Assembly: GCF_025758695.1 (NCBI RefSeq)
Contig: NZ_JANJQP010000002.1
Coordinates: 372,001-436,000 of the forward strand
Length of the DNA stretch: 64,000 nucleotides
Direction: 5' to 3'
Source of the DNA: Oenococcus kitaharae
Lineage (GTDB): Bacteria > Bacillota > Bacilli > Lactobacillales > Lactobacillaceae
In this document: positions 9,714 to 18,621 of the stretch, one piece after another
Layout of the letters: every line of letters starts with the position of its first letter
Position numbering within the stretch: the stretch's first letter is position 1
Notes under the pieces: model-generated
The model's database searches: none
What the model saw: only the letters and a program-made list of their open reading frames with translations
What the model was told of the DNA's origin: nothing
Position numbers and translations under genes: made by a program

Positions 9714-11183
9714 TTAATTTTTAGCAATATATTTTTGGAGAACTTGTCGTTTCAGCATGCGGTACAGGGTCAGGACAAAAGCTACCAAAGCCAAGACCGC
9801 GGCGAATATAAAGCTCCAGTGCATGGCTTGCAGAAAATAATCAGGATGTGCAGGCAGATAATTTAAAACACGTCGTCCGGCCAGATGACTCATACCGAGA
9901 AACAGCATGGTTGTGGCAAATGTATTGCCGACAATAAAACCAATATTTCTGGCTAAAGCGGTGACAGATCCGGCAATGCCTAACAAAGGCTTGGGAACTG
10001 TACTCATTGTCAAAGCGTTATTAGGTGACTGGAAGATGGCGGCCGAAGTCCCGTTTGCAATCAAGGTCAGGATAATTAATAGATAGGGTGAGCCGCCGTT
10101 GATCAATAAGTAGCCAACCTGGCTGAGCATTAGTCCGGCTAAACCGATTAATGTAATCAGTTCTTTATCAAATTTGTCGCCGGCCCATCCGGAAATCGGC
10201 GAAAAAATAAAATTGGCAATCGGAAAGGCCATTAAAATCAGGCCGGATTGACCCGGTGTCAGGCCGCGAAGATCCTGCAAATAAAAGGGCATCAGGATAT
10301 TTGTATAGGAGTTCACCGCAAAGACGAGAAAAGCCGTTGTCAAAGAAATGGAATAAAGCTGGTTTTTGAAAATTTCGAGTTTGATCATTGGAAACTTGAT
10401 TAAATTCTCGACTTTGATGAAGGCTGCTAAAAGCAAAAGGGCCACGACCAAGCCGATGATGACCCAAATATCTTGGAAACCAACTACCTCGGCGGCATTA
10501 ATCGCTAAGAAGAAAACAGCGACAAAGGAGAAGAAAAGTGTTGAACCACTGTAGTCGATTTTTTCGTTGGGCTGGGCAATCGTATCTTGCGGAAAATATT
10601 TGATACCGATCACGATGGCGATCAAACCGATCGGCACGTTTACCCAAAAAATGAAAGTCCAATTGAAGATACTCAGGATGGCGCCACCGATAGCTGGACC
10701 GGCAATTGCGCCCAAGGAGACGAACATCCCGATCACAGACATGGCTCGTGCCCGCATGCTGGCTGGGAAATTAGAGGTCGTGATTCCAAAGCTTGTCGAC
10801 ATGGTCATTGAAGCGCCCACAGCTTGTACGACACGCGCTGCTAGCAAGAAGTAGAGGCCGAAACGGGAAATGCCGGCTAAAAAGGAACCAATTGTGAAGA
10901 TGATCGTACCGATTTTAAAGATTTTGATTTTACCAAAAACATCTCCCATACGGCCGAACAGCAGCAATAGACCCGAGATCACGATTAAATAAACAATCAC
11001 AGTCCAAGTTGCCTGGTTTAGCGGAATGGCCAGATCTTTTGAGATTGAGGGCAGGGCAATATTCACAATTGAGCCGTCCAGAACGCTCATAAAAGTGAAA
11101 ATGCCTAATGCGATCATAATCAGAATATGATCTTTATCCAAATGGTCTGAACTTGATGATTTTGTCTTTTGCACAAGTGTCAT
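9714..11183 (-). CDS. MFS exporter, DHA2 (14-TM drug:H+ antiporter) type
   Basis: A 489-residue transporter with about 14 hydrophobic segments, LDGSIVNIALPSIS in TM1 and the GRMGDVFGKIKIF loop of major facilitator proteins. This matches the EmrB/QacA branch that exports drugs or other amphipathic compounds; the substrate is unknown. The first ATG (11183) lies inside the -10 palindrome at 11182-11202. If transcription starts seven bases after that box, translation would begin at GTG 11174 (three residues shorter) on a leaderless mRNA. No Shine-Dalgarno site is present for either start. Confidence 0.9.
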   Translation of the reverse strand: MTLVQKTKSSSSDHLDKDHILIMIALGIFTFMSVLDGSIVNIALPSISKDLAIPLNQATWTVIVYLIVISGLLLLFGRMGDVFGKIKIFKIGTIIFTIGSFLAGISRFGLYFLLAARVVQAVGASMTMSTSFGITTSNFPASMRARAMSVIGMFVSLGAIAGPAIGGAILSIFNWTFIFWVNVPIGLIAIVIGIKYFPQDTIAQPNEKIDYSGSTLFFSFVAVFFLAINAAEVVGFQDIWVIIGLVVALLLLAAFIKVENLIKFPMIKLEIFKNQLYSISLTTAFLVFAVNSYTNILMPFYLQDLRGLTPGQSGLILMAFPIANFIFSPISGWAGDKFDKELITLIGLAGLMLSQVGYLLINGGSPYLLIILTLIANGTSAAIFQSPNNALTMSTVPKPLLGIAGSVTALARNIGFIVGNTFATTMLFLGMSHLAGRRVLNYLPAHPDYFLQAMHWSFIFAAVLALVAFVLTLYRMLKRQVLQKYIAKN

Positions 11184-11202
11184 TCTAACATTTTGTTAGA
11201 AT
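11182..11202. promoter_or_regulatory. palindrome made of two facing extended -10 boxes
   Basis: ATTCTAACA-TTT-TGTTAGAAT is a perfect 9-base inverted repeat. Each arm reads TGT-TAGAAT in its own direction, an extended -10 box. Each box ends exactly seven bases before a start codon: GTG 11174 on the minus strand and ATG 11210 on the plus strand. It could therefore be a divergent promoter, a regulator site, or both. Two polymerases could not occupy it at once. Confidence 0.6.
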
Positions 11203-11209
11203 GGAGCAG

Positions 11210-11713
11210 ATGACTGAAATTTTAGGACAAACAATACTGGATTTGATTGACGGCCAAAACTATGCCGTGATTTCCTTTCCAGCTGACAAATATACACAAG
11301 CTGTCGCTGATACATTAGAAGGCAACTTTGATTCCACACAGATTAACCGCAGCGAAGTACAAATCGCCGGTGGCGTCGAAGGCGGCGGACAGACAATTTC
11401 TTTAGAGCTGGCACCTTATATCCTGCCTTTGAGATATAAAAATGAATATCGCAAGCTGATCCATCCTGATGCTCAGCTTCCAGTTCATACCTACTTGATA
11501 TTCGAATCGGAGAAAATCAGCAATTCCAAAATGAAAATTGTCCAATTGGATGATCTAACCCAATTAAACGATCAGATCGAGGCATTTTTTGAGATCGAAA
11601 AGAATTGGGTTGCGCCAGTGCCCAAAGAAGAAGAGAAAGATACTGCAGCTGAAGCTAAACCAAAAAAGGCCGCAGCCAAGAAAACAACAAGAAAAAAAGC
11701 CACGAAAAAGTGA
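11210..11713 (+). CDS. unknown protein with Lys/Ala-rich histone-like tail
   Basis: I do not recognise this 167-residue protein. Residues 1-135 look like a compact alpha/beta domain with an acidic character. The last 30 residues are almost only K, A, T and R (KPKKAAAKKTTRKKATKK), like tails of bacterial histone-H1-like or HU-extended proteins, which suggests nucleic-acid or polyanion binding. ATG 11210 is chosen because it is seven bases from the TAGAAT box; ATG 11201 would overlap that box. It is divergent from the MFS exporter. Confidence 0.7.
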   Translation: MTEILGQTILDLIDGQNYAVISFPADKYTQAVADTLEGNFDSTQINRSEVQIAGGVEGGGQTISLELAPYILPLRYKNEYRKLIHPDAQLPVHTYLIFESEKISNSKMKIVQLDDLTQLNDQIEAFFEIEKNWVAPVPKEEEKDTAAEAKPKKAAAKKTTRKKATKK

Positions 11714-15093: not shown

Positions 15094-15877
15094 AGACTTG
15101 ATCTTTGACCAAGTCAAAACGCGGCCAATTTTGGTTGAGCAAAACCGGAACGCTCAATTGAGCCTGCTGCCAGAATTTTTTGGAATTTGTGACGCCGTTT
15201 TTCTCACCGATCACGATCAATTCACCACCGCGATTAAAGAAATGATGGACACGCAGGAAATTTAAAATCAGCCAGTCCGAATTAGCGTGCTGGGGTGACC
15301 AGGACAATACAATCACCTCGACATCTTTTAAATAATATTCGACAGCAGCCGAGGCATCCATCTTGACGACTTTTGTAATCGGTGTCATCTGCCGGTCCAT
15401 GAGTTTCCAATCGAAATTGTCAGTGGCCGTGATTGGGTAATCAATCTGTAATTGCCGCAATCCAGCAGTCAAAAAGCCGTTGCCGGCCATAATTTCCAGC
15501 GCCGGCCGGCCATCCAGGTAGGTATATAAGTCATTAATCCAGGGTTTGGCGATATAGGCAAACATACCGTAACGTTCGATCAGATACTGACGGTAGTCGC
15601 CCAGTAATTGATCCAGTTCTTCAGCGGGGCGGACTTTTTGCTGGATTTCCAGTTCCGACATGCCGGCTGTAATCTGTTTGGACAAAAAATCCTGGATATC
15701 GACCATCATCGAATCAGATAAGGCCAGCTCAGGCAGACTTTCCGGAAGTTTTTGCCGGCTGATGGCCAGATCAGAAAAAAGCAGCGCATCAATTAGATCG
15801 CTGACAGAATAAAGTTTGGCAAAATAATCCCGGCAGGCTTTGAGGCGGGGGATGTAAGTCTCCAGATTAAAAGCCAT
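15080..15877 (-). CDS. SAM-dependent methyltransferase-like protein
   Basis: A 265-residue protein. Residues 1-110 look mostly helical. From about 125 there is a Rossmann-type methyltransferase core with ALEIMAGNGFLTAGL as the SAM loop, TATDNFDW as the acidic second strand and VIVLSWSPQ as the fourth strand. I see no DPPY/NPPY motif, so DNA N6-adenine methylation is not supported. Its start overlaps the stop of the XRE regulator gene by 11 bases, so the two form an operon. The 3' end overlaps the convergent kinase gene by 14 bases. Confidence 0.7.
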   Translation of the reverse strand: MAFNLETYIPRLKACRDYFAKLYSVSDLIDALLFSDLAISRQKLPESLPELALSDSMMVDIQDFLSKQITAGMSELEIQQKVRPAEELDQLLGDYRQYLIERYGMFAYIAKPWINDLYTYLDGRPALEIMAGNGFLTAGLRQLQIDYPITATDNFDWKLMDRQMTPITKVVKMDASAAVEYYLKDVEVIVLSWSPQHANSDWLILNFLRVHHFFNRGGELIVIGEKNGVTNSKKFWQQAQLSVPVLLNQNWPRFDLVKDQVFTVK

Positions 15878-16295
15878 TGTGGTTGTCGAATAAATCCAGA
15901 GTCTCTTGATGATCGATATTTAGCAAATCACCGGTCGAACGGCGTCCGCGAGCGTGCAGATAGCCGGAAACCAGTTGGAGAATTTCGTATTTGTCGTTAT
16001 TGTCCAGCGGCGTATCGTTATAGGTCAGCTTAGAAGTCGTGATCATGGCCTTAGCCAAGTCAACCTGATCGTTATTGTAGCGGCCGACCAAATAATCCAT
16101 CGAGACATCAAAATAATCGGCCAATTTTTTGACTTCAAGGTAATTCGGGTTTCTCTCGCCGCGTTCCCAATTGCCGATCTGGGATTCTGTGTTCTTTGAT
16201 TCGCCCTTGGTCAAATTCCGATTTAATGCTTTTGCGAGCTGTTTTAAGGTGATCCCTTTACCGCGCCGCAAAGCTCTGAGTCTCTCTGGAAACAT
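15867..16295 (-). CDS. XRE-family transcriptional regulator
   Basis: A 142-residue protein with an N-terminal helix-turn-helix (residues 4-70: LRALRRGKGITLKQLAKALN ... IGNWERGERNPNYLEVKKLADYF, then VSMDYLVGR). The C-terminal 70 residues are unassigned. It precedes and overlaps the methyltransferase-like gene. The start has TGA-TAAGAT (minus strand, 16310-16302) ending six bases before the ATG. The AGAGG next to the ATG is too close to act as a Shine-Dalgarno site, so a leaderless start is likely. Confidence 0.85.
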   Translation of the reverse strand: MFPERLRALRRGKGITLKQLAKALNRNLTKGESKNTESQIGNWERGERNPNYLEVKKLADYFDVSMDYLVGRYNNDQVDLAKAMITTSKLTYNDTPLDNNDKYEILQLVSGYLHARGRRSTGDLLNIDHQETLDLFDNHNGF

Positions 16296-16373
16296 GCCTC
16301 TATCTTATCAGGAAAAGCCTGCTTATTAAACGCGCACCTTTGTTCGTCTCCAGATATGAGAGAATAAAATATA

Positions 16374-18594: not shown

Positions 18595-18621
18595 AAAAAA
18601 GCAGCCTTGGCTGCTTTTTTT
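18595..18621. terminator. bidirectional terminator
   Basis: A short GCAGCC/GGCTGC stem with a TT loop, flanked by A6 and T7, lies between the small membrane protein and the convergent oxidoreductase gene. Confidence 0.88.

Follow-up and report, generated by a model that had tools for sequence, protein, structure and literature searches.

Putative back-to-back -10 boxes and predicted leaderless starts in a compact divergent gap of Oenococcus kitaharae

Introduction

Leaderless genes, in which the -10 box lies about seven bases before the start codon, have been reported for the clade of Oenococcus and Leuconostoc (Zheng et al. 2011, PMC3160421) and, in a 2025 paper, for Deinococcus-Thermus (PMC12340547); the same placement is found at the locus described here. 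In the excerpted text of these papers, pairs sharing one gap are not the subject: the word 'divergent' is absent from the former, and both 'divergent' and 'bidirectional' are absent from the latter. The bidirectional promoters described by Warman et al. (PMC12825309, PMC10268837) resemble our locus in that a short symmetric stretch serves divergent mRNAs and polymerases exclude each other sterically; in the excerpts of that work, they share one -10 element and their starts are spaced by 7-25 bp, most often by 18 and also by 10 and 23. In M. florum, divergent genes are transcribed from two overlapping back-to-back promoters, as we propose here, and that genome also yields leaderless mRNAs, but the excerpted account does not state that this pair's promoters yield them (PMC7745072). 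In Mycobacterium tuberculosis the divergent neighbours prpD and Rv1129c are both leaderless, one with a Met and one with a Val start, again as at our locus; one of the two is described as an adjacent regulator, and the spacing or overlap of the promoters is not given in that passage (PMC3898074). Singly, the literature already has leaderless genes for this clade, overlapping promoters placed back to back, and a divergent pair of leaderless genes. Among open-licence papers, we found no account of compact divergent leaderless pairs recurring across a genus.

Oenococcus kitaharae is related to the wine bacterium Oenococcus oeni. We analysed a 64,000-nucleotide stretch of its genome (the window; positions 372,001 to 436,000 of contig NZ_JANJQP010000002.1, assembly GCF_025758695.1), in which an exporter gene and a gene of no assigned family point away from each other across a short gap that contains a perfect palindrome. 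By examining the geometry of this gap, its counterparts in seven genomes of the genus—near-complete G000 (the source), G002, G003, G005 and G006, and the drafts G004 (68% complete) and G001 (65% complete)—and the positions of -10 boxes before start codons, we arrive at a reading that we consider probable: the gap would hold two overlapping back-to-back extended -10 housekeeping promoters that give two leaderless mRNAs, and the palindrome would be a by-product of their near-identical cores.

Results

Geometry of the focal gap

The features of the site are collected in Table 1. The sequence at 11181-11203 reads CATTCTAACATTTTGTTAGAATG, with 10-bp arms flanking a TTT centre; a preliminary description of this DNA had given a perfect palindrome of 21 bp, and its perfection is real, although the repeat is one base longer at each end. 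The stretch TGTTAGAAT is present on both strands, and TGT-TAGAAT, a fair extended -10 box, can be read at 11194-11202 on the plus strand and at 11190-11182 on the minus strand. As the preliminary description had it, each hexamer ends seven bases before a start codon (ATG 11210 for the plus-strand hexamer, GTG 11174 for the minus-strand one); the boxes are not head to head, as was also said, but back to back, that is, divergent. Neither strand shows, by eye, a -35-like hexamer at the usual distance. The -10 hexamers are separated by 9 bp and the predicted RNA starts by 36 bp, which places the site outside the definition of bidirectional promoters by a shared -10 element and starts 7-25 bp apart. 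Judged from the sequence and a footprint size taken from general knowledge, the regions that would be bound by polymerases on opposite strands overlap, with transcription directed outward. Since the two promoter cores take up nearly all of the intergenic DNA, each mRNA probably begins right at its start codon, and the symmetry of the palindrome would follow from two similar -10 cores on opposite strands with 9 bp between them.

Table 1. Features of the focal site (positions in the window) and start distances of other compact divergent pairs in the genus.
Feature	Position	Strand	Remarks
DHA2/EmrB-type MFS exporter gene, 486 aa, start GTG 11174	9714..11174	-	TIGR00711, 231.3 bits against a cut-off of 230.2; predicted RNA start G 11174
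Gene of 167-aa protein with Lys/Ala-rich tail	11210..11713	+	predicted RNA start A 11210
Perfect palindrome CATTCTAACA-TTT-TGTTAGAATG	11181..11203		equals two opposed extended -10 boxes
-10 hexamer TAGAAT of exporter gene	11182..11187	-	extended -10 TG at 11189-11190
-10 hexamer TAGAAT of plus-strand gene	11197..11202	+	extended -10 TG at 11194-11195
In-frame ATG within exporter-gene box	11181..11183	-	probably not a start: no Shine-Dalgarno-like stretch ahead (by eye); absent in G004
In-frame ATG within plus-strand gene box	11201..11203	+	probably not a start: absent in G002, G003, G006
RNase_T exonuclease//GHMP kinase			starts 37 and 37 bp apart (G000, G006)
ypsA//recU			starts 23 and 24 bp apart (G000, G006)
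uvrC (GTG)//DUF1361			starts 39 and 40 bp apart (G000, G006)
Aminotransferase//AAA-domain			57 bp kept; box in G006 poorer (TAAGAT), failing the motif there
Acyltransferase//methyltransferase			21 and 19 bp; one good and one weak box; doubtful

Genome-wide leaderless signal

In the 464 kb of the source genome that were scanned (430 ORFs), an in-frame ATG follows TANAAT at a gap of 6, 7 or 8 bases 13, 17 and 7 times, respectively, against 3.0 times per gap elsewhere, so that 37 boxes are found at these gaps where about 9 are expected. A 400-kb sample of G006 shows the same preference (10, 14 and 4 against 2.25), and one of equal size from the outgroup G038 of the same order shows no excess of TANAAT (0, 4 and 0 against 2.9). 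GTG and TTG starts have a weaker peak at gap 7, with 8 against 3.1 in the source genome, 5 against 2.3 in G006, and 1 against 3.3 in G038. Of the 37 source-genome boxes before ATG, 9 are TAGAAT, and hence a meeting of two TAGAAT boxes is not strange. The focal boxes are placed for an RNA start at the start codon on both strands, and this genome-wide excess, together with the boxes and gaps retained in relatives (below), speaks for the two -10 boxes and the predicted leaderless starts at GTG 11174 and ATG 11210 that the preliminary description had proposed.

A candidate leaderless regulator gene was observed separately: a TetR_N-domain gene of the source genome (G000:C1:24649; domain match C1:24673-24810) has TGCTAAAAT six bases before its ATG.

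Start codons of the flanking genes

The GTG of the exporter gene is kept in the five near-complete genomes, and in G004 an ATG stands at the same distance from the box. No Shine-Dalgarno sequence precedes GTG 11174 by eye. A GTG as the predicted exporter start is nonetheless a point against the leaderless reading, since leaderless starts are usually AUG; in the excerpted report on S. agalactiae, all 78 of them were (PMC4448216). On the plus strand, a Met codon aligns to 11210 in all nine proteins compared, which were trimmed at this Met, so that the invariant first column alone proves nothing. GGAG lies three bases before ATG 11210 in G000 and G005 and is not found there in G002, G003 or G006; it is too close for a usual Shine-Dalgarno site, yet not to be dismissed entirely. 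The plus-strand protein matches no Pfam or NCBIfam family, its best solved relative is no better than E 0.09, and its AlphaFold model (mean pLDDT 39.5) was not used.

Were the two genes to begin instead from the in-frame ATGs that the palindrome contains at 11183 and 11201, their promoters would lie elsewhere and the boxes would be there by chance. ATG 11183 does stay in frame in the five near-complete genomes, and annotation programs may favour it over a GTG; it arises, however, from TAGAAT followed by G (AATG), and the 7-base gap sets its frame with the GTG. Neither ATG has a Shine-Dalgarno-like stretch ahead by eye, each is missing from one or more relatives (Table 1), and the genome-wide leaderless signal opposes starts in this position. 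After the comparison with relatives, we regard starts at ATG 11183 or 11201 as highly improbable.

Conservation of the boxes and the question of an operator

A search for related loci with the plus-strand protein gave no result, and one with the exporter alignment led to the O. oeni locus. Both boxes and both 7-base gaps are kept in all five near-complete genomes of the genus. The site in G005 is identical to that of the source; G002, G003 and G006 carry ATTCTAACATTTTGTTAGTAT, in which one arm is altered and the box of the plus-strand gene becomes the poorer TAGTAT, with both 7-base gaps retained. The exporter-side TAGAAT is kept in these five genomes and in G004, whose exporter is 51% identical and where the exporter side reads TAGAAT-7-ATG and the other side TGATAATCT-6-ATG (TAATCT), such that both boxes are readable and the symmetry is gone. 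As one arm varies, or the symmetry is lost, while the boxes stay, the conserved item is the pair of boxes and their distances to the starts. The preliminary description had asked whether the palindrome is kept as a unit and had taken its loss beside two retained genes as grounds for giving up its reading; in the alignment of the gap, the palindrome is perfect in only two of the five near-complete genomes (G000 and G005), one base off in the other three and broken in G004, which comes near to that outcome.

In G001 the plus-strand gene has another neighbour, with TGTTAGAAT still upstream, 10 bases before the ATG, and the exporter homologue, apparently with a leader, is found on a different contig. 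A protein similar to the Xre-like protein (by eye) encoded at 15867-16304 on the minus strand of the window is found near the plus-strand gene of G001 (L011 341-775). G006 has a second exporter copy (C1:1310939-1312375), 77% identical to the O. oeni exporter, located away from the plus-strand gene and apparently provided with a leader. These two apparent leaders, like the poorer TAGTAT box in three genomes, weigh against the leaderless reading.

The preliminary description had also called the palindrome a natural regulator site, meaning here that a dimeric regulator of the TetR, MarR or Xre type would bind it as an operator and shut both promoters together. Exporter genes are usual targets of regulators of these types, two other exporter-like genes of the source genome have an adjoining TetR_N gene, and the gene at 15867-16304, 4.7 kb from the palindrome, resembles an Xre-type regulator by eye. 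The symmetry is perfect in G000 and G005, and a 19-bp core, TTT centre included, is identical in four species, and a 280-column alignment of four distinct sequences contains no longer run of identity; this core exceeds the strict need of two boxes, and an operator would also explain it. Against an operator stand the variation of the symmetry among relatives described above and the positions of regulator genes of the two families searched: on the contig, the closest TetR_N and MarR_2 genes are 175 kb and 52 kb from the site, respectively. The source genome, moreover, has no further place that matches both arms within 2 mismatches (four places match both arms at 3 mismatches), and two common -10 boxes suffice to explain the symmetry. 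With an inverted repeat not kept as a unit, and neither a linked TetR_N or MarR_2 gene nor a further site within 2 mismatches, the locus lacks these marks of a TetR/MarR-type operator; the comparison of orthologues, the site search and the gene positions do not support this role, which we judge unlikely.

Chance expectation for the palindrome and for the layout

Palindromes with arms of at least 10 bases and a loop of at most 5 gave three matches at two sites of the window (the focal one and 18596-18619), and 20 dinucleotide shuffles of the window gave a mean of 0.7 such matches. The palindrome alone is unremarkable against chance and was rejected as a signal in itself; the expectation for the exact 21-mer within 3 mismatches is 0.01 occurrences in the window. 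At the second site, two convergent ORFs flank the perfect inverted repeat AAAAAGCAGCCTTGGCTGCTTTTT, which resembles a two-way terminator.

Chance does not account for the full layout (start-7-box-9-box-7-start). Allowing at most one mismatch, it was found at the focal locus in five of the seven genus genomes, which are all five that are at least 90% complete, and the reversed-pattern control gave one match, in G001. A slightly looser pattern without mismatches was found in 14 of 301 family genomes (the same five and nine others), against 4 of 301 for its reversed control. At the seven readable places among the nine others, no frame longer than 49 aa was found on either side; the seven do not include the places in G016 and G225, for which no locus was given. 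A second two-box layout place, with one mismatch, is common to G000 (C1:332837-332877) and G005 (C1:1366041-1366081).

Other compact divergent pairs in Oenococcus

ORFs were called by a simple longest-first rule, without a gene finder, and scanned for divergent neighbours at most 120 bp apart in which each start (ATG, GTG or TTG) is preceded, at a gap of 6-8 bases, by a loose -10 motif. The scan was passed by 6 of 53 pairs in G000 C1, 1 of 8 in the window (the focal pair), 4 of 45 in G006, and 0 of 50 in the outgroup G038; ten other gap bins pooled gave 4, 1, 1 and 2, respectively. Double leaderless starts exceed independence only modestly: at gaps 6-7, G000 has 6 against 2.5 (p 0.011), G006 4 against 1.6 (p 0.045) and the window 1 against 0.4 (p 0.39), and with gap 8 added G000 has 7 against 3.2 (p 0.008) and G006 5 against 3.2 (p 0.16), the outgroup having 0 or 1. 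Among 14 divergent pairs conserved in both samples, four satisfy the scan in both species, one of these being dubious, and two do so in a single species. A candidate adjoining dnaE was dropped, as its starts are not common to both species.

Three G006 pairs are orthologues of G000 pairs at nearly equal spacing (Table 1). The kinase of the exonuclease pair is one that we take to be mevalonate-kinase-like, and the AAA-domain gene of the aminotransferase pair is presumably NadR-like. No motif matches were obtained in G004 for recU, the kinase or uvrC, or in G001 for uvrC or recU, and both drafts were left out of the comparison at these pairs. In G000, G005, G003, G002 and G006, the exonuclease//kinase, ypsA//recU and uvrC//DUF1361 gaps have the same boxes and closely similar spacing, less clearly at uvrC. 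The exonuclease//kinase gap sits in a 42-bp stretch in which four distinct sequences differ at a single base, immediately after the gap; the ypsA//recU gap has a 17-bp identical run in four sequences, and the longest identical run in the uvrC alignment is only 10 bp. In these five genomes the GTG of uvrC directly follows TATAAT, making uvrC a candidate leaderless GTG gene.

In five Oenococcus genomes the two boxes of ypsA//recU have two bases in common (ATTCTACAAT), and this gap, with starts 23-24 bp apart, would fit the excerpted definition of bidirectional promoters by Warman et al. (PMC12825309, PMC10268837) as far as sequence goes; it is a candidate bidirectional promoter for two leaderless mRNAs. 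In three other family genomes the ypsA and recU starts are separated by 65, 137 and 141 bp, with a script selecting the TTG starts; 22 of 30 recU loci had no usable recU or ypsA match with crude motifs, so the spacing outside the genus rests on these three. Taken with the focal site, which appears to belong among them, such pairs seem to form a set of compact divergent leaderless pairs in Oenococcus, whose spacing is kept between species.

Polymerase competition at the focal gap

The preliminary description had the two promoters exclude each other as a built-in switch. With boxes 9 bp apart, two polymerases could hardly sit together, and their mutual exclusion is sterically likely. A switch would demand more, namely competition so strong that one gene on means the other off. 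Interference has been reported at E. coli bidirectional promoters once one side is activated; in the excerpted results, however, all five of five such promoters showed no competition at basal activity, which was too low for it, and competition appeared with strong activation of one direction (Warman et al. 2026, PMC12825309). A switch needs activation of one side, and nothing at the focal site points there, nor is an activator site known for it. Plain competition, besides, yields no memory, and at the other compact pairs the genes have housekeeping roles and do not evidently need to oppose each other. The steric part of the claim is plausible; the switch is unsupported, and we hold it to be very unlikely.

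Discussion

The reading that we favour, of two overlapping promoter cores facing outward, implies a simple course of events. Sigma-A polymerase would bind either core and open the DNA at TAGAAT; RNA would begin on the first base of the start codon (GTG 11174 or ATG 11210), so that both mRNAs would be leaderless, and ribosomes would start at the 5' end of the mRNA. A polymerase bound in one orientation would block the other, and, since such cores should be of modest strength, low-level expression of both genes is probably all that results.

More tentatively, we suggest that Oenococcus may have made ordinary divergent pairs into minimal modules, a possibility that we think somewhat doubtful at present: the gap would consist of two -10 cores, overlapping or back to back, both mRNAs would be leaderless, and the orientation in which polymerase lands would set the ratio of the two proteins without a leader, a -35 box or a Shine-Dalgarno step, the spacing being under selection across the genus. 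If so, 20-40 bp with promoter cores and start codons nearly touching would suffice for two divergent genes, and the modules would allow direct tests of polymerase competition and of leaderless translation, including that from GUG starts, in a low-GC Gram-positive bacterium. Start codons in the annotation of Oenococcus genomes would be corrected, and the focal palindrome becomes ordinary once it is read as two boxes.
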